Virus record (IMG/VR): IMGVR_UViG_3300017719_000146
Location: 1 to 27,588 of that record
Reading direction: 5' to 3' (one strand)
Length of the DNA stretch: 27,588 nt
Source of the DNA: a virus
Of this stretch, positions 2,871 through 27,427 are shown piece by piece. Position 1 is the first letter of the stretch; every line of letters starts with the position of its first letter. The position numbers and the translations under genes are program-made. A model generated the notes under the pieces. That model worked only from the letters and a program-made list of their open reading frames with translations, was not told where the DNA came from and ran no database searches.

Positions 2871-2894
2871 ATGAAAAAACAGGAAGTGAAATGA
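2871..2894 (+). other. Possible leader micro-ORF (MKKQEVK)
   Basis: In the P2 leader, ATG at 2871 opens a seven-codon frame whose TGA overlaps the ATG of the DUF932 gene (ATGA at 2891-2894). Its last codons hold the ribosome binding site GGAAGTGA. It could couple translation of the main gene to the leader. The frame is too short to be tested by eye. Confidence 0.3.
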
Positions 2895-3865
2895 TGACAA
2901 GAATGATTGCCGCATATATGACGATGGGCCAGCAGGCCCGTGGAGATACGACCGCCGAGGTACTTGCCAATTCCGGCATGGACTTCGGTGTGAAGACCGA
3001 ACCGCTGTACACAGCACAGGGCCGAGAAGTCCGAAGCAAGTTCCAGCGTGTTGCAAGAACAGACAACGACCATACGCTGGGAGTGGTGGGTAAAACCTAC
3101 AATGTTTTGCAAAACGAAGAACTGCTTGCGATGGCTGATACCCTTGTGGGAACAGGCGAGATTGAATGGGACCGAGTAGGAATGATTGACGGAGGCTCAC
3201 GCCTTTACGCATCCTTCTCCTTGCCCGACTCCTTCCGCATCGACGGATGGGACGACCTCAACCAGTACATCTACCTCACCAACGCCCACGACGGGTCGCA
3301 AGGTGTGCGATGTGTGCCGACGAATGTCCGACTTGGTTGCACCAACCAATTCCGCCATGCGATGTCAAGCCTCAAGCGGGCTGGCATCAACCCCCGTGAC
3401 CTCTCAATCCGGCACTCATCGAAGATGCACGACCGGCTTGCTGAAATGCGACACGCCATCAAATTGACCGACACGCTCAATCAAAATTTTGCCGACACTG
3501 CTGGCGAATTGTTGGCCGTCGAGATGGATGCTGTTGACAGGGCAGAATACTACATCGACATCCTCGGCCTCAAGACCGAAGAAAAATTGCGTGATGGTGA
3601 AAATGAACACGGCCTCAAGACCCGTGGACTCAACACCATGAACCACCTTCTCGCCCTTGAGAAGTCCCGCACGAACAACACTTCCGCTATGCGTGACACC
3701 GCTTGGCAGTCGTTCAATGTCGTCACCGAATACATCGACCACGCATGGGTCCACAACGCCGCAGGCACCGTGAACCAAAAGCGAGTCGAATCCGCCGTCC
3801 TCGGCGTCGGTTCCAACACAAAGGCAAAAGCATGGGATGAGGTGGTCGCCCGAATCATCGCTTGA
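2891..3865 (+). CDS. DUF932 (TIGR03299-like) phage/plasmid protein
   Basis: The 324-residue protein carries the landmarks of the DUF932 family: GVVGKTYNVLQNEE (64-77), YLTNAHDGSQGVRCVPTNVR (128-147) followed by LGCTNQ, and the RHSSKMHDRLAEMRHAI helix (174-190). Family members are widespread in phages and plasmids; their biochemical function is not established, although placement near replication or early genes is common. Start at 2891 or the adjacent ATG at 2894; GGAAGTGA at 2882-2889 fits the second slightly better. It opens operon 2 behind promoter P2. The length is normal for the family and no truncation is visible. Confidence 0.88.
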   Translation: MMTRMIAAYMTMGQQARGDTTAEVLANSGMDFGVKTEPLYTAQGREVRSKFQRVARTDNDHTLGVVGKTYNVLQNEELLAMADTLVGTGEIEWDRVGMIDGGSRLYASFSLPDSFRIDGWDDLNQYIYLTNAHDGSQGVRCVPTNVRLGCTNQFRHAMSSLKRAGINPRDLSIRHSSKMHDRLAEMRHAIKLTDTLNQNFADTAGELLAVEMDAVDRAEYYIDILGLKTEEKLRDGENEHGLKTRGLNTMNHLLALEKSRTNNTSAMRDTAWQSFNVVTEYIDHAWVHNAAGTVNQKRVESAVLGVGSNTKAKAWDEVVARIIA

Positions 3866-9405: not shown

Positions 9406-9822
9406 ATGGGCAAGCGCAACAACAACCGATTGGCACAAAGGGTATGGACATTCTTGACAAACCACGACGACGCCATGACAACCTCTTCTATCCACAACCA
9501 TCTCGTTACCGTGTACGGTGTTCGTGACATACCAAAGCAACAGACCTTGACACAGGTACTTCTCCAATCCCGCATGTTCAAGCGGGTTGGATGGTACAAC
9601 GAAGTAACATTTCAAACCCACCCCTTCACCGGAAGCATGAGCGCACTAAACCGAAGCACAGGTATTCCGAGTACCAACCTTGTGTGTATCTTGGAGGCCC
9701 GTACAATGGAAGAAGTGTGCCAGCCCTACCTCGACCCCACTAACTCCCCACTCCGTCGCTTAGACCGTATGCCAGCGTTTGTACGGAAGCATGTTGAATC
9801 CCTACGAGGTGATGCACAATGA
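9406..9822 (+). CDS. Winged-helix family protein, member C
   Basis: The 138-residue protein has a basic N-terminus (MGKRNNNRLAQRVWTFL), a helix after 'AMTTSSIHNHLV', then GVRDIPKQQTLTQVLLQSRM, the family's IP turn and recognition-like helix, and a C-terminal extension (NLVCILEARTMEEVCQPYLD). The same layout occurs at 5014, 8059, 13701 and 22986. It is probably translated from a leaderless message. It overlaps the PAC2-like gene by ATGA at 9819. DNA binding is inferred. Confidence 0.78.
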   Translation: MGKRNNNRLAQRVWTFLTNHDDAMTTSSIHNHLVTVYGVRDIPKQQTLTQVLLQSRMFKRVGWYNEVTFQTHPFTGSMSALNRSTGIPSTNLVCILEARTMEEVCQPYLDPTNSPLRRLDRMPAFVRKHVESLRGDAQ

Positions 9823-10574
9823 AGATGATGCAATCCTTCCGTGACATTGACATTTTCTTCAACGACGGTACCAAACAGATTAACGCCAAAAATACTTTCA
9901 TCTATGTCGAGGGTGAGTATGGTTTCATCCCTCTCATTTGCGGCAAGGCTGTTGAAGCGAATGGTTACGAGATTGGACAGATAGCATCGAAGTACCAAAA
10001 TGTCGAATCCTTCAATCGTTTCCCGCAACCGAACCTCCCAACATGGCGAGTCACTCAAACCAATGAAGACACTATCTTTGTCGCTATAACAAATTGGTTT
10101 CCGAACAGTGACGGTAAAGGTGAACCAAACCCTTCTCTTTGGAGTAACTCGTACCCCGTTATGAAATCCCTGCTCCAATGGTTGCAACAGAATGGGTGCA
10201 AGAATGTGACTACCTTGACGAGTATGAACATCCTTGACGCAGAAAAGAATTCGTCTGTCAATGTACATAATTCGCACAACGATTGGCAAGGCAAGTATTC
10301 CGACGAAGACTCATACCTCGCTCTCCCTGCGTGGTCATTCCCGTGGCTCGCAGACAAGATGGGTATGTATGGTCGATGTGTTGTCACCAGCCAAGACGAA
10401 GGACAGTTCATTGACTACGAAGCACTCACTAAGACTCAAATTTGGTTGTCGTTGCAAGGTCTTGACTGCGACAAGAGTGTTACGGAAAAAACAATCAACA
10501 TGCTGATGAGTGTGGAAACAGAAATCACAAGTCAAGGTTTCGATGAAGATGGTTCTATGGGGGAATTTCAGTGA
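9819..10574 (+). CDS. PAC2-like (proteasome assembly chaperone fold) protein
   Basis: The 251-residue protein starts at ATG 9819 (ATGA overlap), after GAGGTGA. The middle reads DTIFVAITNWFP (about 84-95), SYPVMKSLLQWLQQNG and VTTLTSMN, followed by LPAWSFPWLADKMGMYGRCV (from about 170) and DYEALTKTQIWLSLQGLDCD. This order, a strand, an organising helix, a 'gv..iitlgG' strand, then a gly/alpha segment and a P-D-x-x-A-x-x-x-L-L-like helix, matches the PAC2 family in outline. Archaeal PAC2 proteins act as proteasome assembly factors or ATP-independent chaperones. The match is distant and made by eye. The gene precedes the MCM-like ATPase by a GTGA overlap, so it may instead serve replication. Confidence 0.5.
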   Translation: MKMMQSFRDIDIFFNDGTKQINAKNTFIYVEGEYGFIPLICGKAVEANGYEIGQIASKYQNVESFNRFPQPNLPTWRVTQTNEDTIFVAITNWFPNSDGKGEPNPSLWSNSYPVMKSLLQWLQQNGCKNVTTLTSMNILDAEKNSSVNVHNSHNDWQGKYSDEDSYLALPAWSFPWLADKMGMYGRCVVTSQDEGQFIDYEALTKTQIWLSLQGLDCDKSVTEKTINMLMSVETEITSQGFDEDGSMGEFQ

Positions 10575-11905
10575 CTCGTATTATTGACCGAATACTTAAC
10601 TTTGCCAAAGGTAATTACTATGTCGATGTCGAAGACAAAATACCAATCTTCGTAACCTCGATTGGCGCACACATCTTCAACGCAATAAACAAGTGTAGCC
10701 GGTGTGACTTTGACCCGTTGCACAACGCAGACTTCAACATCCCGACTTGTCCACTGCGACATAACTTCGCACCGATTTACACACCAATGTCACAACTGGC
10801 AGACACACGAGTCCACATCTTGATGCGTGGTGAGAAGGGTTCCGGTAAAAGTATGCTCATCAATATGTTCCTCGCAGAAGGTACAGGCTTGCTTTACACA
10901 CCAACGGCGTTTGAGGATGGTTCCGGTTTCCGGACAATGCTCGGACCTAACTCGGTCACGGAAGCAGGTATGTTCGGCTCCGTTGACGAAGATGGTAACA
11001 TTGTAGGACGCCCCCTCGCTCGTGACATGTGTGGTGGATTCCTCGGCTTTGAAGAATCATCATCGCTCACTGATGCAAACAAGAAAGACCACAGCGTTGA
11101 CATGAAGAATCAACTCCTAACTTCCCTTGACAATGGTCGGGTTGAGAAGGCGATGAGAAGCGGTAGGGTTCGATACAATACCCGCTATACTATGTGGGGC
11201 GGTACCCAACCTTCTCGTCTTGAGATGGAGTCCGGTCTTGACCGTCGTCTGTTCATCATCGACATTGAGATGAGTCCGGAGAAAGAGGCGGCGTACAAGA
11301 CGGCGCAACACAAGCAGGTCAATATGACCCGTGAAGACCGAGCCATGCTCGCCGAAGAAGTGATTCACATTCGCAATTGGATTAACACCCGAATGCTCGA
11401 CGCAATCTTCGACCCTCCGAGTGGTGTCCACTTCTCTAATGAATTAGGGACATGGCTCGACCGACCGGACATTCGCTCTTTTGAGTCCGACCTTTTCCGG
11501 CGCATCGCAATCGGGTACGCCATGATGAGTGATGAGTGGGTCGGCAACCAAGTCCTCAACATTACTCTTGACGAAAAATTACTCAAGATTCTTGAGGCCG
11601 CACTTGTCATGCGTCGCTCGGTTATGGATTCCGACGCACGACTCATCAAGGATGCGTTTTGGATGCAAGACATTACCAAGTCCACCTTGCTCAAAGAAAT
11701 CGCTCGCATCATCACCCGTGGTGACTACACTGCGGCGAAGCGGTGGATTGACGACAATCTCGTCAACCAACCGTGGTACTGTGAATATACCCCCAAGACT
11801 AAGGGGCGAGGTCGCAAGGGTGTCATGTGTCGAATAGGAACCTTAACAGACCCAGCCCAAGTGGTACAGAAGTGGGGAGGTGAATCCGATGAGAAGCCAG
11901 CGTGA
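10571..11905 (+). CDS. MCM-like AAA+ ATPase, putative replicative helicase
   Basis: The 444-residue protein begins at GTG 10571, overlapping the upstream stop. It has a possible zinc site (C42-x2-C45...C60-x3-H64), the Walker A motif GEKGSGKS (87-94), MCM-like YTPTAFEDGSGFRTMLGP (109-126) in the place of 'YTSGKGSSAAGLTA', Walker B GGFLGFEE (155-162), a DNGRVEKAMRSGR segment (187-199) like MCM's 'ISIAKAGI', sensor-1-like GGTQPSR (210-216) and LDRR (223-226) as the arginine finger. The C-terminal part is helical with a basic KTKGRGRKG. MCM rings unwind DNA at archaeal forks. The canonical Walker B aspartate is replaced (FEE). The sequence is divergent, so another AAA+ role (packaging, helicase loading) cannot be excluded. 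Confidence 0.6.
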   Translation: MTRIIDRILNFAKGNYYVDVEDKIPIFVTSIGAHIFNAINKCSRCDFDPLHNADFNIPTCPLRHNFAPIYTPMSQLADTRVHILMRGEKGSGKSMLINMFLAEGTGLLYTPTAFEDGSGFRTMLGPNSVTEAGMFGSVDEDGNIVGRPLARDMCGGFLGFEESSSLTDANKKDHSVDMKNQLLTSLDNGRVEKAMRSGRVRYNTRYTMWGGTQPSRLEMESGLDRRLFIIDIEMSPEKEAAYKTAQHKQVNMTREDRAMLAEEVIHIRNWINTRMLDAIFDPPSGVHFSNELGTWLDRPDIRSFESDLFRRIAIGYAMMSDEWVGNQVLNITLDEKLLKILEAALVMRRSVMDSDARLIKDAFWMQDITKSTLLKEIARIITRGDYTAAKRWIDDNLVNQPWYCEYTPKTKGRGRKGVMCRIGTLTDPAQVVQKWGGESDEKPA

Positions 11906-16782: not shown

Positions 16783-16985
16783 CATACAAGGTTCTTGGGC
16801 GATGGACTACATGCCCCCACTGTGGTAAAACATACAAGGACAAAATCATTGGAAGAATCCCCTGCCCGCATTGCGTCAAATGCACACGACCGGAGAAGTG
16901 CTTCCCTCAATTTGAGGGTCGCTACCACTGCAAATTGTGCGCCGCACAGAAAGTGATTACCGACCTAACGGGGGAAGAGGAATGA
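16779..16985 (+). CDS. Small protein with three CxxC motifs
   Basis: The 68-residue protein has TTCPHCGKTY, RIPCPHCVKC and RYHCKLCAAQ, six to eight cysteines that could hold two zinc ions. It resembles rubredoxin-like or double zinc-ribbon adaptors. It starts at an ATGA overlap behind GAGGTGA and ends in an ATGA overlap with the clamp-loader gene, so it may be made together with that protein. A role in replication or transcription is inference. Confidence 0.75.
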   Translation: MTYKVLGRWTTCPHCGKTYKDKIIGRIPCPHCVKCTRPEKCFPQFEGRYHCKLCAAQKVITDLTGEEE

Positions 16986-17887
16986 GCGTTTGGGCTACAC
17001 ACCACCGACCCACAAGTCTTACGGGAATAGTAGGTCAGCCGGAACTCATCGCTGAACTGCATCAAATCGTTCTTGGCGAACTGCCGATGCAACACTACTT
17101 GTTCTTTTCTCCGGAGGCTGGTACCGGCAAGACCTCCGTCGCTCACGCTCTTGCAAAGGACTTGGGCTGGCAGTTGGTCACCTTCAACGCATCTTCCAAG
17201 AGAGAGCGAGGTATCGAGTTCGTTGAGGATGTTCTCATTCCTATGACCCGAAGTGGTATTCAAGAAAGAATCTTTTTGCTCGATGAAGCGGACCAATTGA
17301 CCGATGCCGCCCAATCCGCTCTCAAGGGTGTGATTGAAAACGCTAACGGTTATTTTATTCTCACCTGCAACCGACTCCCAAAGGTTTCACGCTGGTTGCA
17401 ATCTCGGTGCCAAGTTCGTACTTTTAACGCAATACCACTCTTGGACATGACAGAACGATTGACCTCTATCGCTGTACAGACCGGCAACGGTGACATTTCC
17501 AAGACTTCTGTTGGTGTTATCGCAAGGGCGCACAGCGGCGACCTGCGTAATGCTATCGGTGCTTTACAGACCTACTGTGGTATGAGCGGGCGAAGTGCCG
17601 AATCATTCCTCGATGGGCTGACCGCACCCCACATCGACTTCTCGAAAATGCTCATAGTATGTTTTCGGGAAAAGAACTTTGAAACAGCAGTCAAGATGTT
17701 GAAGGGTGATGTTCGGTACCAAATCCGAGAATGTTTCCAATACGCCGTCGAATCCGGCGCAAAAGTACAGTCCAAGATGCGTGTCATTGAAGCGGCGATT
17801 ACCGCCGAGCGTGACATAATCAACGGTGTGGATGAAGAAGTAGTGCGCTACAACTTCGTCCGTATGCTGGTCGGAGGGAGCCAGTAA
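16982..17887 (+). CDS. rfcS: RFC small-subunit-like clamp loader ATPase
   Basis: The 301-residue protein has all key AAA+ clamp-loader motifs: an N-terminal RPTSLTGIVGQPELI (RFC box II-like), Walker A SPEAGTGKTS (43-52), Walker B IFLLDEAD (97-104), sensor 1 around N130, the SRC arginine-finger motif (141-143) and sensor 2 GDLRNAIGALQ (186-196), followed by a helical collar. RFC small subunits form the ATP-driven part that opens PCNA rings and loads them on primed DNA. The first residues of Walker A are SPEA rather than GPPG, a mild change. The start is fixed by the ATGA overlap at 16982. No classical large subunit is in the window; the gene at 12768 is a very tentative partner. Confidence 0.92.
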   Translation: MSVWATHHRPTSLTGIVGQPELIAELHQIVLGELPMQHYLFFSPEAGTGKTSVAHALAKDLGWQLVTFNASSKRERGIEFVEDVLIPMTRSGIQERIFLLDEADQLTDAAQSALKGVIENANGYFILTCNRLPKVSRWLQSRCQVRTFNAIPLLDMTERLTSIAVQTGNGDISKTSVGVIARAHSGDLRNAIGALQTYCGMSGRSAESFLDGLTAPHIDFSKMLIVCFREKNFETAVKMLKGDVRYQIRECFQYAVESGAKVQSKMRVIEAAITAERDIINGVDEEVVRYNFVRMLVGGSQ

Positions 17888-17936: not shown

Positions 17937-19163
17937 ATGGTAGCATACGAACAGATGATTGAAAAAGTAGCAACGCAAGTCGGAACTGACCCCAAGACGC
18001 TATCGGCGAAAGCCGAAGCAATCCTCGCCCAAGAAGGCGCAGGTTGGGAAGCATCCGGCAAGAACGAAGAACAACGCAAGACTCTTGCCCTACGAGTAGC
18101 GGCACGACAATTGGTGGCTGAAAAGGCAAAATTGACCCGCAGTGGTGCAACGATGTACGAAGGTATGTTCGTCAATGTTCCCCGTGAAAAGGATTGGGCT
18201 AAGATGGCCTACAACAAGATGAGCAAGACTCTCAAGGCTATGCCGGACATGGCACAACGCCTCGCTCTTGTTGGTCAAGGTGCGCTCACCATCTACGAGA
18301 ACAACCACGACGGTTCGTGGACTCGTCACGCCAACCCTTCTTTGTTGAATCAACAGGACTTCGCCGAGGGTACTCGCTCCGACGAAATCACTCAAATCCC
18401 ACCACGACATGTGGTGCTTGATGCGAACACCTCGTTCTCACTGATTTGGGACAAGGCAACCACACACTTCGCAAACGGCAAGCCGAACTTCAAGTACGGC
18501 TCCGCTCGACCACTTGAAGAACCCGACCGCTCGTGTCAATTCTTGGGTCGCAAGGCTGGCTCCAACGACGCTCCAAGTCTTCACGACTTCCGATACAACG
18601 GTGTCTTGGCAAAGCAATCTTGGCCGACCTTCGTCACCGGTACTATCGGTATGAAACCTGCCAACCGTGAGGGGATGGCATACGGCACAAAGGTCACCGC
18701 CTTCACCGCTGATGCTGACCTCTCTTCAATCTTCACCGCTCCACCTCTCATGGTTGACGAAAACGGTGCAAGTGGACTCGTCGCTGACTGGCTTGGGGAA
18801 ACGCTCATGTCTTCTCTCGACAAGTGTCACGAACACTACGCAACTCTTGACGACAAAGCAAAGTGGAACACCACCTACGCTACCGTTGTTGAAGTGGTTC
18901 ACATCGACCCTCGTGAGAACGGCGGTTTCATCGTGACCGTGGCTGATGCCGATATTATGTCGGAAACCCCACCAATCGAAGTGTATGTCGGTGCCTCCGA
19001 GGAAACCTCGGTTGACTTCGGCGTTGGTTCGGAACTCGTTGTTGTTGGCTCTCCGTGGGTCACCCGTGATGGCGAGGCTCGCTTTATGACCTCCGCATGG
19101 TGGTGCATGAACCGCATCGCACCTCTCGCTGACACTGACGATGGCGAAGACGGCTGGGATTGA
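17937..19163 (+). CDS. RPA-like single-stranded DNA-binding protein
   Basis: The 408-residue protein starts MVAYEQMIEKVATQVGTDPK, like the helical N-terminus of archaeal RPA proteins (E-x-x-IE+IA...TG-x-x-x-E). The C-terminal third has ATVVEVVHIDPRENGGFIVT, then FGVGSELVVVGSPWVTRDGE, the order of strands in an OB fold ('Gd-x-V-x-V-G'), and ends in an acidic tail, DTDDGEDGWD, like the protein-binding tails of SSB/RPA. The centre may hold another domain. RPA coats single-stranded DNA at the fork. It has its own promoter and a good binding site. The call rests on N-terminus, OB-like pattern and tail together; no single motif is decisive. Confidence 0.6.
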   Translation: MVAYEQMIEKVATQVGTDPKTLSAKAEAILAQEGAGWEASGKNEEQRKTLALRVAARQLVAEKAKLTRSGATMYEGMFVNVPREKDWAKMAYNKMSKTLKAMPDMAQRLALVGQGALTIYENNHDGSWTRHANPSLLNQQDFAEGTRSDEITQIPPRHVVLDANTSFSLIWDKATTHFANGKPNFKYGSARPLEEPDRSCQFLGRKAGSNDAPSLHDFRYNGVLAKQSWPTFVTGTIGMKPANREGMAYGTKVTAFTADADLSSIFTAPPLMVDENGASGLVADWLGETLMSSLDKCHEHYATLDDKAKWNTTYATVVEVVHIDPRENGGFIVTVADADIMSETPPIEVYVGASEETSVDFGVGSELVVVGSPWVTRDGEARFMTSAWWCMNRIAPLADTDDGEDGWD

Positions 19164-19191
19164 GTCGCATATAACTTTGGGGGTAAAGTAA

Positions 19192-20778
19192 ATGTCGAAT
19201 GTAGTCATGGGTGAGCAAGCGCAAGCCGCTCTCTTGGAAGCAATCAACCTTGTCGCTGATGCCGTGGAAGGTACGCTGGGACCGCAGGCGAGAACTGTTC
19301 TCGTCACGCATCCCGAACGACCACCGGCAGTGTTGAACGACGGTGTGAAAATTGTTTCCTCCGTCAAGTCCGAAAAACCTGCGGTACAAGCCGCAGTGCA
19401 ATTGTTCCGACAGGCCGCACTTGAGGCTCAACAGGCATCGGGCGACGGTACTACAACGGCAACACTACTTGCTCGTGCTATCTGCAACGCATACACCGAC
19501 CATCCCAACAAAGTCCAAGCCGCTCAAGAAATCGCTGAACTGACAGACGAAACCGTTGCATACATCGAACGGCAAAGCGAGGAAATTGACTTTGATGCAC
19601 TCACTGACGAAGGTGAATGGGATGAGTTAGAACAGCGGTTAAAGTTCGTGGCTACTGTTGCCGCCAACAACGACGAACCTCTCGGTGAACTGGTTGCTGA
19701 AATCTTCACCGAACTCGGTCCCGACGCACTTGTCAATCTCAAGGTCGGCTCTCTCGACCACACGATTTGGTCACATGCTATCGGTACGAGTATTCCCACA
19801 ACATTCGTTTCTCCGATGTTCTGCAATACGGACAAGCGAACTGTGGAGTATCACAACCCGCTGTTTATTCTTACCCAAACAGTAATTGAAGACTTTGAGG
19901 ATTTGATGCCTGCTCTTGAAATCGCAGTCGAGAACAACCGACCTCTCATCATCGTCTGTCAAGACATTAAGGGTGTTGCTTTGTCAAACCTCATCGCTAA
20001 CCATGTAGGAGGCGTTGTCAAGGCATGTGCCATCAAGGTTCCCTATGCTGACCCTCTCGCTTGGATTGACGACATTCAAGCCCTTGTGGGTGGCAAGAAC
20101 TTCTTCGATGCCAAAGGTCACACTATCGCCGATGTTGTCGCTGGTTCCAAAATGATTGGTTCCGCCGACACAATTAGGATTACCGAAACAGAAACCGTTA
20201 TCATCGCTGGTGAGGTTGGGAAGGGCTTGTTGCCTCATCATGTGTTGAATCTGCAAAAGCGAGCCGCCGCTTCTGTCCATTCTTTCACCAAAGAGAAATT
20301 ACTTACTCGTGCCGCAAGACTAAATTCAAAGATTGCTAACATTCACATCGGAGGATTCAGCGAGGCTGAAATTCGTGAAACGAGGGAAAGGGTTGACGAT
20401 GCTGTCAACGCTACCCGACTCGCCATGAAGGGTGGTACTGTTCTTGGTGCTGGTGTGACTCTTGCACGATTGACTACCGTCACCACGGCACCTGCCACCC
20501 GCACACGCAACGAACGCTGGGAAAAGGTTCTCCTTGAGCCGGTTCGTGTGTTGACCAAGAACGCTGGGAGTGAGCAATCGCTCGCAGATATTAGGAAGTT
20601 ATTCGTACAGAAACACTACTATTCCAATCTTCACAAGGCGAAGTTCAGCATCGAAACACAAGACACTTGCAATGTGTACGACGCTACGCTTGTGCTTGTG
20701 AACTCAATCAAAGCCGCCGCATCAATTGCTCGGCTCATGCTACTCACCGACCGAATCGTTTTGGTGGGCGAACAATAG
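19192..20778 (+). CDS. groL: Group I chaperonin (GroEL/HSP60-like)
   Basis: The 528-residue protein is a group I chaperonin along its length. Equatorial motifs: VADAVEGTLGPQARTV (21-36), DGVKI with Asp50, ASGDGTTTATLLARAI (82-97), VDDAVNATRL (401-410, with the ATPase Asp), GTVLGAGVTL (415-424, GroEL GVVAGGGVAL) and a C-terminal YDATLVLVNSIKAAASIARL. The apical domain matches GroEL (TTFVSPMFCN, PLIIVCQDIKGVALSNLIAN, ACAIKVPYADP). Thermosome signatures are absent. It lacks the GGM tail. No groES-like gene is visible. GroEL folds proteins in an ATP-driven chamber; a virus copy could fold capsid or replication proteins. ATG 19192 follows GGGGG; only a weak TATA-like CATATAAC precedes it, so it may be read from the 17890 promoter. 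Confidence 0.93.
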   Translation: MSNVVMGEQAQAALLEAINLVADAVEGTLGPQARTVLVTHPERPPAVLNDGVKIVSSVKSEKPAVQAAVQLFRQAALEAQQASGDGTTTATLLARAICNAYTDHPNKVQAAQEIAELTDETVAYIERQSEEIDFDALTDEGEWDELEQRLKFVATVAANNDEPLGELVAEIFTELGPDALVNLKVGSLDHTIWSHAIGTSIPTTFVSPMFCNTDKRTVEYHNPLFILTQTVIEDFEDLMPALEIAVENNRPLIIVCQDIKGVALSNLIANHVGGVVKACAIKVPYADPLAWIDDIQALVGGKNFFDAKGHTIADVVAGSKMIGSADTIRITETETVIIAGEVGKGLLPHHVLNLQKRAAASVHSFTKEKLLTRAARLNSKIANIHIGGFSEAEIRETRERVDDAVNATRLAMKGGTVLGAGVTLARLTTVTTAPATRTRNERWEKVLLEPVRVLTKNAGSEQSLADIRKLFVQKHYYSNLHKAKFSIETQDTCNVYDATLVLVNSIKAAASIARLMLLTDRIVLVGEQ

Positions 20779-20787
20779 GCGAAGCCA

Positions 20788-20797
20788 ACCTTTATAT
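20788..20797 (+). promoter_or_regulatory. Archaeal promoter ACCTTTATAT
   Basis: TTTATAT begins at 20791, 29 bases before ATG 20820. Normal spacing would put the start of transcription at about 20817, downstream of the ribosome binding site AGGAGG (20807-20812), so that site would only work on read-through messages from the chaperonin gene. Confidence 0.7.
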
Positions 20798-20819
20798 GGC
20801 TACAATAGGAGGAAATAAT

Positions 20820-21752
20820 ATGTCTTGGGGAACTAAAGCAACAGAAGCGACCGTCACTAAAACGGGATTTGACAAGGACTACTACCGTGGTCTTTTTGAG
20901 AACAACACCGCACAATCGGTGCCTGTACGCATGGCACTAATCGGCAAGGAGAACTGTGCCAAGACCGGTACAGCCATCAGCATTTGTCGGCAGGTACGGC
21001 CGAAGGGTCGCATCTATGTGTTCGATGTTGATAACTCGGCGAAGGCCACCATCGACTCCGCATACGCAGGCGACGATGAAATCACAGTCCTTCCCCTTCT
21101 TGACGAGCGTGACGATAGCATCTTCAACGACGATGCTACCGTGAACTACGCTAACTTGATTGACAAGGTGAACTACTTCGTGAACATTGTCGCAGACAAG
21201 TCAAAGGAAGGAGAAGATATTGCCGGAATAGTATTCGACGGTGGTTCTACTTTCTTGAAGTGGTGCGAGTTCGCCATGACTGATGTTCTGCTCCGAAAGG
21301 GCGTTATCAAAGAAGAAGGCGACTCCTTCAACCAAAAGGAATGGCGCACCCGCAACCAACTCTTCCGCCAAGTTATGACTCGACTTCACGGTCTTGCTGT
21401 GCCTTGTGTGTTCTTCACCTTCCATCTCAAAGATGTGTCGAACTATGTTGACAACGGCTCCGGTGGCAAAGTTCTAATGAAGGTCGGTGAGCGACCGGAA
21501 TGGGACAAAGGCACCATGCGCTTGTTCTCCCAGCAAATCTTCTTGTCACGCTACATGAAGAAGGCTGATACCGCCGCTGGCGTCAAGGCTGACCCGACTC
21601 TCAAGAACGACGACGATTGGGTTGTCAAGGCTACCATTGAAGAAATCAAGGGACAACACATGGAGTTCATCGGACAGACCACCACCATCCTCTCTATTAT
21701 CAAGGGTAAAGTACAATGGGCCGGACTTCCAATGCTCACATGGGGTGAGTGA
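20820..21752 (+). CDS. RadA/Sak4-like recombinase ATPase
   Basis: The 310-residue protein starts at ATG 20820 behind AGGAGG. It has a P-loop, IGKENCAKTGTA (41-52), a strand ending in FDVDNSAKA, and a Walker B strand, IAGIVFDGGS (134-143), followed by a helix and VPCVFFTFHLKDVSNYV, a 'vi.tah'-like switch strand. This is the layout of RecA-fold ATPases of the AAA_24/Sak4 group, which phages use for homologous recombination. The P-loop has Ala where the glycine before Lys is normal (GxxxxAKT) and should be checked for activity. Role in recombination-dependent replication or repair is inferred. Confidence 0.65.
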   Translation: MSWGTKATEATVTKTGFDKDYYRGLFENNTAQSVPVRMALIGKENCAKTGTAISICRQVRPKGRIYVFDVDNSAKATIDSAYAGDDEITVLPLLDERDDSIFNDDATVNYANLIDKVNYFVNIVADKSKEGEDIAGIVFDGGSTFLKWCEFAMTDVLLRKGVIKEEGDSFNQKEWRTRNQLFRQVMTRLHGLAVPCVFFTFHLKDVSNYVDNGSGGKVLMKVGERPEWDKGTMRLFSQQIFLSRYMKKADTAAGVKADPTLKNDDDWVVKATIEEIKGQHMEFIGQTTTILSIIKGKVQWAGLPMLTWGE

Positions 21753-21753
21753 A

Positions 21754-21966
21754 GTGAACGGTGAATTGTTTGAAGCGTTGGAAGGTGTTATCATCGCACT
21801 GAAAGACAGAATCGAAGCGATTGAATCCCGCCTTGCTGATTTGGAGTTCACGCTTGATGAACTTCCCGAAGTAGGGAACATTGCCGCCGCAGTCCAAGAA
21901 CTACAAGAACTTCACGAAGCACCCGCCTCCAAGTTCACACACTACATTTCGGGGGTGAAACAATGA
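21754..21966 (+). CDS. Small coiled-coil protein, GTG start
   Basis: The 70-residue frame starts at GTG 21754, behind GGGGTGAG, two bases after the upstream stop. It is almost wholly heptad-like helix (LFEALEGVIIALKDRIEAIE, SRLADLEFTLDELPEV) with a short C-terminal tail, so a dimeric coiled coil is likely. Its position between the Sak4-like ATPase and the clamp suggests an adaptor. Function unknown. Confidence 0.7.
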   Translation: MNGELFEALEGVIIALKDRIEAIESRLADLEFTLDELPEVGNIAAAVQELQELHEAPASKFTHYISGVKQ

Positions 21967-22865
21967 CCTTCGTTGAAATCACCTCCGTTGACATCGCCAA
22001 CGCTGACCTCGCTCGCCTCTTGACGGTTATGAAGCGCAAGCAGACTGTCAATGGGAAGCAACAGTCGCAGGTTGAGTCACTACTCTTGACTTGTATGCAC
22101 ACCGGATTTGACAAGGCGGAAGGCAGGGGTGGACAAGCAATCGCCACCAGCCTAACGAGGGACTTGTCGGGATTGACACAGGTCACCATGCCTTGCACTG
22201 TCAACGGCTCCGATGTTTGTAGCATCCCCATCCAAAGCATTGACAATATGCTGGGAATCATCAAGTACCACGGCACCCAATTGTCACTCATCTTCGATGA
22301 AGAGAAGAATCGTTTGAAGATTAAAAGTACGGGAAAACAAACAACTCTCGACGCTTCAAAGAACGCTAAGGCATTCTCCCACAGTCCGGACACTATCTCG
22401 GAGTTCCACATGAAAGGTATTGAACTAACGAACCGTATTTGGCACACTGACGGTATGTACTACATCAGTGCTACTAATGAGCGCATCCACCCTTTCGCCA
22501 AATACACTGTTGATTCGACACAAATGTACGAGGCTTTGCGTTGCGACACCATGAATGGACAGCGACTCAACCGCTACACTATCGGTGCGGAATACGGCTC
22601 TCACCACTTGAAGGTTCAAGTCGGCGACATGCACCTCGGACAAACGACAACCGATGTTGCACTTGAAACAATGGCAAAAGAAACATGGGAATGGCAGTTC
22701 GACGGCGGTCTTGACGAAGTGTTCAAATTCATGCCATCCACCTGCGACCTTTACATTTACGACTTCCGTGAATACGGACAAGGTATGCGAATCTTCATGC
22801 ACTGGCCTAACATTTTGGGTGCCAGTGAGTTCTTTGCTTTCCAAGCGGGAGTTCTTACTTATTGA
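21963..22865 (+). CDS. PCNA/gp45-like sliding clamp
   Basis: The 300-residue protein starts at ATG 21963 (ATGA overlap) behind GGGGGTGAAA. Central residues CSIPIQSIDNMLGIIKYHGT followed by QLSLIFDEEKNRLKIKS match the 'l-x-x-L-x-x-i-L-K...D-x-l-x-l-x-x' strand-helix-strand unit of PCNA, and the C-terminal CDLYIYDFREYGQGMRIFMH then WPN matches the PCNA end 'P-l-x-l-x-y-x-i...g-x-i-x-f-y-L-A-P'. A clamp would serve the polymerase and the RFC-like loader in this window. The sequence is divergent and longer than usual PCNA (about 245), so I rate it as probable. Confidence 0.6.
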   Translation: MTFVEITSVDIANADLARLLTVMKRKQTVNGKQQSQVESLLLTCMHTGFDKAEGRGGQAIATSLTRDLSGLTQVTMPCTVNGSDVCSIPIQSIDNMLGIIKYHGTQLSLIFDEEKNRLKIKSTGKQTTLDASKNAKAFSHSPDTISEFHMKGIELTNRIWHTDGMYYISATNERIHPFAKYTVDSTQMYEALRCDTMNGQRLNRYTIGAEYGSHHLKVQVGDMHLGQTTTDVALETMAKETWEWQFDGGLDEVFKFMPSTCDLYIYDFREYGQGMRIFMHWPNILGASEFFAFQAGVLTY

Positions 22866-24839: not shown

Positions 24840-25163
24840 ATGGTTGACACAGACAAATACGAAGGACATACAGAAGGCGAATGGATTGCTGATGGTGATG
24901 ATGAATGGGGATGGGCTGTTGAAACACCTAAACATGATGACCCCTACGCCTTCATTGAAAGAAGAAATGATGATGGGGAAGTAGTATCGCTTAGTGAAGC
25001 AGACGCACGACTCATAGCAGACGCACCACTCCTACTCGCAGAAGTCATACGATTGCGTGAGCAATTGAAAGAAGCAAACGATGTTATCCAGTACGCTCTT
25101 GAAATGTCAAGTGATGATGATTCAACAAGAGTGTTTGAGGATTACTTAGAGGTGATTGAATGA
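24840..25163 (+). CDS. Small acidic phage-type protein
   Basis: The 107-residue protein is strongly acidic at both ends. Residues around 52-73 (SEADARLIADAPLLLAEVIR) resemble the 'N/DA+LIAAAP-LL' segment common in phage proteins of unknown function. The C-terminal half is helical (LREQLKEANDVIQYALEM). It overlaps the polymerase gene by ATGA at 25160, so the two are probably translationally coupled. Confidence 0.75.
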   Translation: MVDTDKYEGHTEGEWIADGDDEWGWAVETPKHDDPYAFIERRNDDGEVVSLSEADARLIADAPLLLAEVIRLREQLKEANDVIQYALEMSSDDDSTRVFEDYLEVIE

Positions 25164-27427
25164 TTGTTGAGCAGAAAGGCAAAAACGATGTGGTCGTTCG
25201 CTATCGTGACAAAAACGATAAGCGTCAAGAAACAGTAATCAAGAAGTATCTCCCGTACTGCTATGTCAGCGAAGAAGACTCAAAGTACATTCACGGTTAT
25301 ACTAAGACCAATGGTTTCACAGGAGTCTTCGGTACGCCTCTCGTAAAAGTCGAGGGTTATTCTACTTGGGATATTCGTGAAATCAACAAGACCGGACACA
25401 CATGGGAAGGCAACATTCCCTTCACCAACCAAGCATTGACGGCACGAGTCAAGTCCGGCGAGAAGCCATTTGAATCCTACAACCACAGGGTTTGGTACCT
25501 TGACGGTGAGTGGAAAATCAACAGTGGCGAAATCACAATGCTCTCGGTCTATGATTCTTTTACGGAAAGACTATACTCGTGGGCCGTAATGCCTAAAGGT
25601 GCTTATTGGGATTCTCTCGGCAAAGGGAAATACAAGATGCTCAAAGGTGAAGACGGCAAGGAGTACCACTTTGATACTCCCGTCATTCTCTTCGACACCG
25701 AGGCTGAACTCTTGTCGCATTTTGTATCTTTCATGCGGAAGCATGACCCCGACATTATCACCGGTTGGTATGTCACGGGAGCCGACATAAAACAAATCAT
25801 GGAACGGTGTGTCAAAACCGGCGTTCGTGCCAGCACTATGTCGCCGATGAACAAGTTGCGCTACGAGTTCAAAGATTGGTCACAACCAATCGTCGGTCGG
25901 AACATTATCGACTTGCGCCTCGCATTCCCCAAGTTGTACGAGTTGAAGAATGGCAAATTGCCGAACTACAAGTTAGATGATGTTGCTTGGGAAGCATTAG
26001 GGGAAAAGAAAGTCGAACTCAAGGATGGTCACGATACCTACTACACTGACCCCGTTCTGTATCTTCACTACAACCGCATAGATGTTGAACTCCTTCCGAA
26101 GTTAGACAAGATGGTCAACGCATTGGAATACTTCATCGCTGTACAGCACATCGCTCAATGTGAGATTCGCTCGACACCACACATCACGCAGGTTTTCTCG
26201 TGTCTTGCTTTGAGCGACCCACAGTTCACAAAACAATTGCCAAGTGAACCACGATTTAAAGCGGAGGCGTATGAAGGTGCGATTGTCATGGATGGTGAGA
26301 AGGGCGTGTATGACGACATCGGTATTTTTGACATAAAAGCAATGTACCACAGCAATGTCGCTTTGCACAACATTTCTTGGGACACACTGTACAAAGATGG
26401 TCAATTCGGCGTTGATGTTCGGGACTGTGGAAATGGGACTCGTTTCTTTCACGGGGCAGATAAGAAGGGTTTGCTTGTCCGACAAATGGATAAAATGACT
26501 GTCTTGCGTGACCACTACAAGGTTTTGATGAAGCAGGCTACAACCGAGGCAGAAAAGGTGCGATACGACGCCTTGCAGTACGCTACAAAGTCCCTCGTCG
26601 CTTCGATGTACGGTGTGGCCGGTGACAGCAAATACGGGCTGTATCACCCCGAAATCGCTTCGGCCATCACATACACCTCTCGACAGACCTTGCTGAAATT
26701 AGCATCCGTCGCAGAAGACATGGGTCACCCTGTTGTGTACGGTCACACCGATTCGGTGATGTGCCAAGTATTCAGTCCCGAAGAAGGGATGAAATCGGTC
26801 ATTGAAATGAACAAGCGTATGCACCCAATCATCGTGCAATTTGAGAAGTGGTCGCAGTCATTCCTACTGATGGAGAAGAATCGGTACGCCGGTTTGGTGA
26901 CTTGGACCGATGGGGAATACCACGAAGCCAAGCGTTATGTTAAGGGAATAGAAATGAAGCAAGCGAGGATGCCAAGCGTGATGAAAAATGCGATGGGTCT
27001 TGTCATTGATTCGGTGCTAAAGCACTACTGCTCCGATGATGTGAACGCTGAATTGACTGAACTTATTGAAGGCGTCATGGAGAAGAAGTTCCCCGATGAA
27101 GACTTGTGTATGAAGGGTAAATTGACAAAGGACTTGAAACAATATACGAGTATCGCTGGTCCCGCCGCAGGCGCACAGTGGGCCAACCGTGTGTTGGGTA
27201 AAGGTTACCGAGGTGGTGACTATTTCCTTTGTAGTATTGACGAGAAAGGCAATTACATAGCCTTTGACGACCCATCCGAAATCGAAGGCGTTGCCAAGAT
27301 TGGTCGGCAGGTAATGGTCGAACGGTTCATCATCAAGAAGGTTTTACCGTATTACCAAGTGGCTAATTGGGATATTGAACCGTTGCACCGAGCCATGAAC
27401 GGCAAGTCTAAGGTACAGTGGTTCTAA
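25160..27427 (+). CDS. polB: Family B DNA polymerase with 3'-5' exonuclease
   Basis: The 755-residue protein has exonuclease motifs LDGEW (D115, E117), WYVTGAD (D209) and YNRID (304-308), and polymerase motif A FDIKAMYHS (390-398; usual DFxSLYPS), motif B KSLVASMYG (477-485; usual KxxxNSxYG), motif C YGHTDS (527-532; usual YGDTDS) and thumb KNRYAG (573-578) plus KGIEM. The catalytic aspartates of motif A (D391) and motif C (D531) are kept, but motif B has Ala for Asn and motif C His for the first Asp. The C-terminus, KSKVQWF, could be a short clamp-binding peptide. The length is normal. ATG 25160 overlaps the previous stop, with GAGGTGATTG as the binding site. It is the virus's replicative polymerase. 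Confidence 0.95.
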   Translation: MIVEQKGKNDVVVRYRDKNDKRQETVIKKYLPYCYVSEEDSKYIHGYTKTNGFTGVFGTPLVKVEGYSTWDIREINKTGHTWEGNIPFTNQALTARVKSGEKPFESYNHRVWYLDGEWKINSGEITMLSVYDSFTERLYSWAVMPKGAYWDSLGKGKYKMLKGEDGKEYHFDTPVILFDTEAELLSHFVSFMRKHDPDIITGWYVTGADIKQIMERCVKTGVRASTMSPMNKLRYEFKDWSQPIVGRNIIDLRLAFPKLYELKNGKLPNYKLDDVAWEALGEKKVELKDGHDTYYTDPVLYLHYNRIDVELLPKLDKMVNALEYFIAVQHIAQCEIRSTPHITQVFSCLALSDPQFTKQLPSEPRFKAEAYEGAIVMDGEKGVYDDIGIFDIKAMYHSNVALHNISWDTLYKDGQFGVDVRDCGNGTRFFHGADKKGLLVRQMDKMTVLRDHYKVLMKQATTEAEKVRYDALQYATKSLVASMYGVAGDSKYGLYHPEIASAITYTSRQTLLKLASVAEDMGHPVVYGHTDSVMCQVFSPEEGMKSVIEMNKRMHPIIVQFEKWSQSFLLMEKNRYAGLVTWTDGEYHEAKRYVKGIEMKQARMPSVMKNAMGLVIDSVLKHYCSDDVNAELTELIEGVMEKKFPDEDLCMKGKLTKDLKQYTSIAGPAAGAQWANRVLGKGYRGGDYFLCSIDEKGNYIAFDDPSEIEGVAKIGRQVMVERFIIKKVLPYYQVANWDIEPLHRAMNGKSKVQWF

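Follow-up and report, generated by a model that had tools for sequence, protein, structure and literature searches.

A magrovirus-related virus clade with a group I chaperonin that has probably lost its GroES gene

Group I and group II chaperonins were both reported in 2017 from Marine Group II (MGII) genomes, and group I chaperonins from MGII viruses, where they cluster with the GroEL of the MGII host (Nishimura et al., PMC5332604). Because MGII genomes and viruses are known to carry group I, such a chaperonin is not exotic for a host or virus of this kind. In the Aoguangviridae, GroES beside GroEL has been classed as an auxiliary function and is therefore not strictly defining (PMC10768690), and a separate magrovirus survey does not mention chaperonins (PMC10160649). 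For the chaperonins of phages EL, OBP and AR9, activity independent of a cochaperonin is reported (PMC7185714, PMC9598537).

The window, meaning the whole stretch of DNA analysed here, is a 27.6-kb virus record and appears to be a fragment of a ~66-kb genome, as judged from overlapping contigs of different viruses. Contig G006 begins in the region of window position 9406 and ends near 2751; G006 and G027 are complementary, each covering a part missing from the other, and with the window they span the whole gene map. Since these two contigs fill each other's gaps, the ~66-kb map is complete for the clade taken as a whole, though for no single genome. Window-clade GC content is 48–49%. The chaperonin gene lies in a replication operon, as follows.

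16937..17887, plus strand: clamp-loader small subunit (RFC-S-like) of the same operon, with Pfam/PHROG-type family matches and 49% identity to the L039 neighbour gene
17937..19163, plus strand: conserved 408-aa virus-specific protein directly upstream of the chaperonin, with no family matches; at a guess single-strand-binding-like
19164..19191, plus strand: 28-nt gap with a Shine-Dalgarno-like GGGGGT, the empty slot in which L034 and L039, with the same operon, have a GroES gene (72–97 aa)
19192..20778, plus strand: group I chaperonin (GroEL/Cpn60 family) ORF, intact from its ATG start, 528 aa, ending in LVGEQ
20796..21752, plus strand: RecA-like AAA_24 ATPase directly downstream of the chaperonin, 56% identical to the L034/L039 neighbours
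21963..22865, plus strand: conserved 300-aa protein in the sliding-clamp position, with no family matches; at a guess PCNA-like
25160..27427, plus strand: family B DNA polymerase (PolB) in one piece, its best matches being haloarchaeal tailed viruses

The proposal in an earlier note that this is an archaeal-type virus is supported by the PolB matches, the clamp loader, the ERCC4-domain protein and tail genes present in relatives, and 13 ORFs of contig G029 that match window-clade proteins. Relatives of 59.8 and 60.8 kb encode portal, tail tube, tape measure and terminase genes. G029 itself (94.9 kb, 34–35% GC, polymerase in two genes) fits the published magroviruses; its two family B polymerase genes lie at L133:7781-8686 and L133:10010-11632, an arrangement found in magroviruses, while the window-clade enzyme is in one piece.

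Several further features were recorded. Positions 832–1314 of the window read by eye as an ArdA antirestriction protein, a family that Pfam finds among the window ORFs (E=8.4e-21), and positions 2891–3865 encode a DUF932 protein (E=1.4e-36) that is missing from G006, whose assembly lacks that region. A 444-aa protein (window 10571–11905) carries a P-loop-like GEKGSGKS motif and is 97% identical across viruses; it has no Pfam or PHROG family match and is possibly the replicative helicase. A 339-aa protein at L013:88-1107 resembles the archaeal primase small subunit, with no Pfam match, and an ERCC4-domain protein comes after it. Near its end, contig G027 contains a 22-nt repeat in three perfect tandem copies (L139:68-133).

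The chaperonin matches Pfam Cpn60_TCP1 (E=1.5e-30) and PHROG 5725 groEL (E=5.6e-85), and its full-length PDB matches are GroEL/Hsp60. NCBIfam GroEL models score it at up to 278 bits, under the NCBI curated cut-off of every one of these models, whereas the top thermosome model reaches 46 bits; a group II chaperonin (thermosome) was rejected, the best thermosome stretch being residues 5–97 only. The group I assignment made previously is thus borne out by profiles, PHROG and PDB matches alike. The protein is 28–30% identical to GroEL of E. coli as well as to the best-matching GroELs of phages. Purifying selection between clade members (dN/dS 0.16–0.21), together with synteny kept in many contigs, indicates that the gene is real and maintained, and rules out an artefact or a decaying gene. 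The parts of the protein referred to below are these.

19441..19473, plus strand: ATP-site motif GDGTTTATLLA, residues 84–94, positioned by computation from the ORF start
19594..19638, plus strand: acidic insertion at the equatorial/intermediate boundary, residues about 135–149, from the alignment
19948..19998 (approximate), plus strand: apical helix I (VALSNLIAN...), GroEL positions 255–269, from the alignment
20392..20418, plus strand: VDDAVNATR with the catalytic Asp (GroEL D398), from the alignment
20446..20454, plus strand: GAG replacing GroEL GGG 414–416, from the alignment

Alignments reproduce each sequence detail that had been read from the DNA earlier, namely GDGTTTATLLA, VDDAVNATR, GAG for GGG and the absent GGM tail. 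GDGTTTATLLA is invariant in three alignments, and the ATP and catalytic residues D52, D87, GDGTTT, D398 and D495 (GroEL numbering) are kept; departures from GroEL include K51 to N and G415 to A. The acidic insertion is ~12 aa longer than in GroEL and 4 aa in clade members that are 50% identical. The GGM-rich C-terminal tail is also missing from magrovirus relatives, and it is common in bacterial GroEL without strictly defining group I. Since three clade members retain GGG, GAG is no general mark of the clade, and it was dropped as an explanation of lid loss. Alteration of the left inter-ring site is common to all these viruses, lid-bearing relatives included, and was likewise set aside as an explanation; some inter-ring and allosteric changes, being common to lid-bearing relatives, are therefore no consequence of lid loss. 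The right inter-ring site (R452, E461, S463) is kept in the window and lost in many clade members. The fold model (pLDDT 83) has the three-domain GroEL fold, with GroEL/Hsp60 as best PDB matches (TM 0.84–0.87), and no apical insertion or helical protrusion of the built-in lid type was seen in the aligned segments.

No Pfam Cpn10 match at E≤1 was found in the window and ten near relatives, which make up the 11 records of the close clade, or in 17 more distant clade records (G011–G027). A six-frame search of clade contigs with a profile of small viral GroES proteins gave nothing significant; the best match, L003:463-714 (E=0.14), was discarded as it is out of frame and absent from the window. 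Among 160 small-protein families that jointly cover the clade gene map, profile–profile comparison gave GroES likeness a probability of at most 2.9%, the positive comparison by the same method, small GroES versus true GroES, reaching 89.9%. In window-clade contigs with an intact junction the 408-aa gene stops 22–30 nt ahead of the chaperonin. The lack of GroES noted earlier for the window therefore holds and extends to the rest of the genome at clade level, where none was detected in contigs jointly covering the gene map, an absence pieced together from contigs that overlap but come from different viruses, each clade genome being partial.

The related viruses differ at this slot. Magrovirus-type relatives and L034/L039 have a GroES gene of ~72 aa just upstream of the chaperonin, and in L040 and L043 it lies slightly further upstream. 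Two sub-threshold Pfam Cpn10 matches beside the chaperonin of magrovirus-type relatives were later recognised as real reduced GroES. These ORFs (70–97 aa) start with MKAVG, contain a TxSGI-like loop and finish in a YxxIMAV-like end. A profile built from 13 such sequences upstream of the chaperonin, from magrovirus-type contigs and L034/L039, recovers all 13 sources as well as L040, L043, E. coli groS (E=0.04) and phage GroES genes, and in the profile–profile comparison above the small proteins align with true GroES along their length. A fold model of one of them (pLDDT 80) has GroES/Cpn10 as all of its top 16 PDB matches, with co-chaperonins leading in a viral structure library. Across L026–L043 and L034/L039 the reduced GroES falls under the Pfam Cpn10 cut-off, its GroES fold being supported by the model. 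Because a viral GroES of ~72 aa under the Pfam cut-off may escape routine annotation, claims of a viral GroEL without GroES need checks at the profile level.

In L039 the gene order is clamp loader, a 389-aa protein, small GroES, chaperonin and RecA-like gene, and in L034 it is small GroES, chaperonin, RecA-like and clamp-like gene. Their neighbour genes are homologous to those of the window (47–49%, 36–40%, 56% and 34–37% identity), and the chaperonin is about 33% identical to theirs, compared with 56% for the RecA-like neighbour.

In the chaperonin tree the window clade has full support (100/100) and joins L034/L039 (97/99), then the magrovirus group, on a stem of 1.8–2.1 changes per site versus 0.3–0.45 for sister stems. 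Viral and Poseidoniia (the MGII class) GroELs unite (88/99), and an alternative tree with the Poseidoniia proteins beside E. coli-like GroELs is rejected (p-AU 0.0007), in a test chosen after the tree had been seen and with narrow cellular sampling. The earlier note had proposed such a phylogeny and had counted a Poseidoniales group I chaperonin as nearest relative among the outcomes that would refute its reading; among the cellular sequences this outcome was obtained, so the group I gene by itself is not exotic for such a host. The best explanation is that the viral ancestor derived from, or shares an ancestor with, an MGII-class group I chaperonin. What remains unusual is that the clade has probably lost a cochaperonin gene which its relatives carry. 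GroES has probably been lost in the window lineage rather than merely gone undetected, and a single loss on the window-clade stem would be the simplest history suggested by these sequences. Parsimony by itself does not decide between loss and gain; the case for loss is stronger, since the clade is flanked by two lineages that have the lid and GroES accompanies the host version too.

The host of the clade is presumably an MGII archaeon, as magrovirus kinship and the chaperonin tree suggest. The 16S probe sequence EURY806 was used to centre the search for MGII-class genomes, and nearly all of its matches have titles naming Poseidoniales, Marine Group II or Euryarchaeota. Group I GroEL occurs in 60 of the 293 MGII-class genomes, GroES is its neighbour at 31 of the 36 loci inspected, and Cpn10 exceeds the cut-off in 6 of the 50 genomes sampled. 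L230–L258 are ordinary GroES–GroEL operons with GGM tails, found in about one-fifth of MGII-class genomes, single-cell genomes included. The suggestion that the host may have no GroES is not supported by these counts or by the 2017 literature: because MGII-class GroEL usually adjoins GroES, the host may well possess one. Within the 293 genomes no match stood out from the level of the cellular GroELs, the best scoring 337 bits, and the scan of species genomes for a host link returned no relative of the conserved upstream protein.

The apical groove of GroEL, formed by helices H and I, binds both the client and the GroES loop. Mean identity in helix I is 97% within the window clade versus 52% in the lid-bearing magrovirus group, and in helix H 81% versus 49%, with equatorial domains differing similarly in both clades (0.61 and 0.58); the groove excess inside the apical domain is modest, 3.3% of shifts being equally high. 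Identity across the ATP core is 93% among clade members. Relative to host GroEL, groove residues change at 263 (V to I), 264 (L/I to A), 257 (E/Q to V) and 231 (Q to D/E).

Taken together, these observations lead us to a reading to which we assign a probability of about 0.5, namely that a clade of tailed viruses related to magroviruses has lost its lid gene and encodes an ATP-driven chaperonin that would act without a viral lid, specialised on one conserved partner or a few. The ancestor would have worked with a small GroES lid whose gene lay immediately before its own; along the branch leading to the window clade the lid gene would have disappeared while the chaperonin evolved fast, leaving a protein that keeps its ATPase machinery and an apical groove that hardly varies. 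Through ATP cycling it may bind and release a single conserved partner or a few of them, probably proteins of the virus, in a presumed ring that would stay open, without a virus-encoded lid. Such cycling most likely continues, because the ATPase machinery and the groove are conserved. By analogy, open-ring working like that of the EL, OBP and AR9 chaperonins would be the likeliest mechanism, at odds close to even. The narrower scenario, in which the descendant of a lid-using ancestor came to serve a single conserved client as its dedicated chaperone, with the lid lost, the body evolving fast and the groove then freezing, is tentative, and we expect it to hold in a minority of outcomes.

The idea in the earlier note that the chaperonin works alone stands as regards the virus, in which GroES is undetected, and is weakened in that host GroES could serve as the lid. 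Borrowing of this kind, which would spare the virus a lid of its own, is unlikely, though next in rank after the open ring. It draws on the MGII-class loci counted above, single-cell genomes included, and a frozen groove would also be expected from binding the conserved mobile loop of a host protein. The window fold model resembles the GroES-bound state as well, lying closer to bound subunits (TM 0.84–0.87) than to open ones (about 0.57), which is weak evidence because such models settle on one state. However, most sampled genomes lack a match (Cpn10 in 6 of 50, GroEL in about 20%), and groove residues 263, 264, 257 and 231 differ from those of host GroEL. Rather improbable is a virus-encoded lid too divergent for recognition, as T4 gp31 is relative to GroES: the clade has several small conserved proteins of no known family, and sequence methods can miss a lid because the GroES of the sister viruses itself falls under the Pfam cut-off, yet none of the 160 small families exceeded 2.9% and the ancestral slot is empty.

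Loss of any protein-folding role, with the ring acting as a scaffold or sequestering device, is very improbable in our estimate; the location in an operon of replication genes (clamp loader, RecA-like, polymerase) and the lower conservation than in the RecA-like neighbour (about 33% versus 56% to L034/L039) would fit it, but the ATP-site motifs are fully kept and nearly invariant. Common descent of the lidless state with jumbo-phage chaperonins of the EL and PBS1/AR9 type we hold to be scarcely credible. Forcing the window clade and those proteins together lowers the log-likelihood by 18.7, a union disfavoured but not rejected at the 5% level (p-AU 0.088), although in the best tree they stand far apart, the clade grouping with lid-bearing archaeal-virus chaperonins (97/99); long branches affect both groups, and the operon supports the same archaeal-virus kinship.

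The question of how a chaperonin can dispense with its lid has been pursued mostly in a handful of bacterial jumbo phages, whose relatives lie too far away to be compared. The present operon occurs both with the lid gene (L034, L039) and lacking it (the window clade), and the tree puts the change on a single branch, so that consequences for ring, groove and client range are directly testable. If the preferred reading of lid loss and specialisation is true, the reduced 72-aa lid of the sister viruses permits a before-and-after comparison in natural proteins.

The presence of group I chaperonins in MGII viruses was already known in 2017; what is new is a viral lineage of them that has, probably, lost its cochaperonin gene. 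The MGII-virus clades 2–4 of that year likewise have a group I chaperonin, are tailed and have a polymerase that groups with haloviruses, and the available part of the text leaves the cochaperonin untreated and does not name GroES (Nishimura et al., PMC5332604). The Aoguangviridae, or magroviruses, are likewise archaeal tailed viruses with their own replication genes and GroEL, and homologues are shared with G029; they differ in having both GroEL and GroES, genomes of 90–100 kb and PolB as separate N- and C-terminal domains (PMC10768690), whereas in the window clade GroES is missing, PolB is a single piece, the map is ~66 kb and GC is 48–49%. The Poseidoniia proteins, the closest cellular chaperonins in the tree, have their own adjacent GroES and GGM tails, unlike the window. 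The EL, OBP and AR9 chaperonins are, like that of the window, virus-encoded and group I-like with no GroES of their own (PMC7185714, PMC9598537); they belong to bacterial jumbo phages and stand separate in the best tree, and the independence from GroES that was tested or reported there is, for the window clade, inferred.
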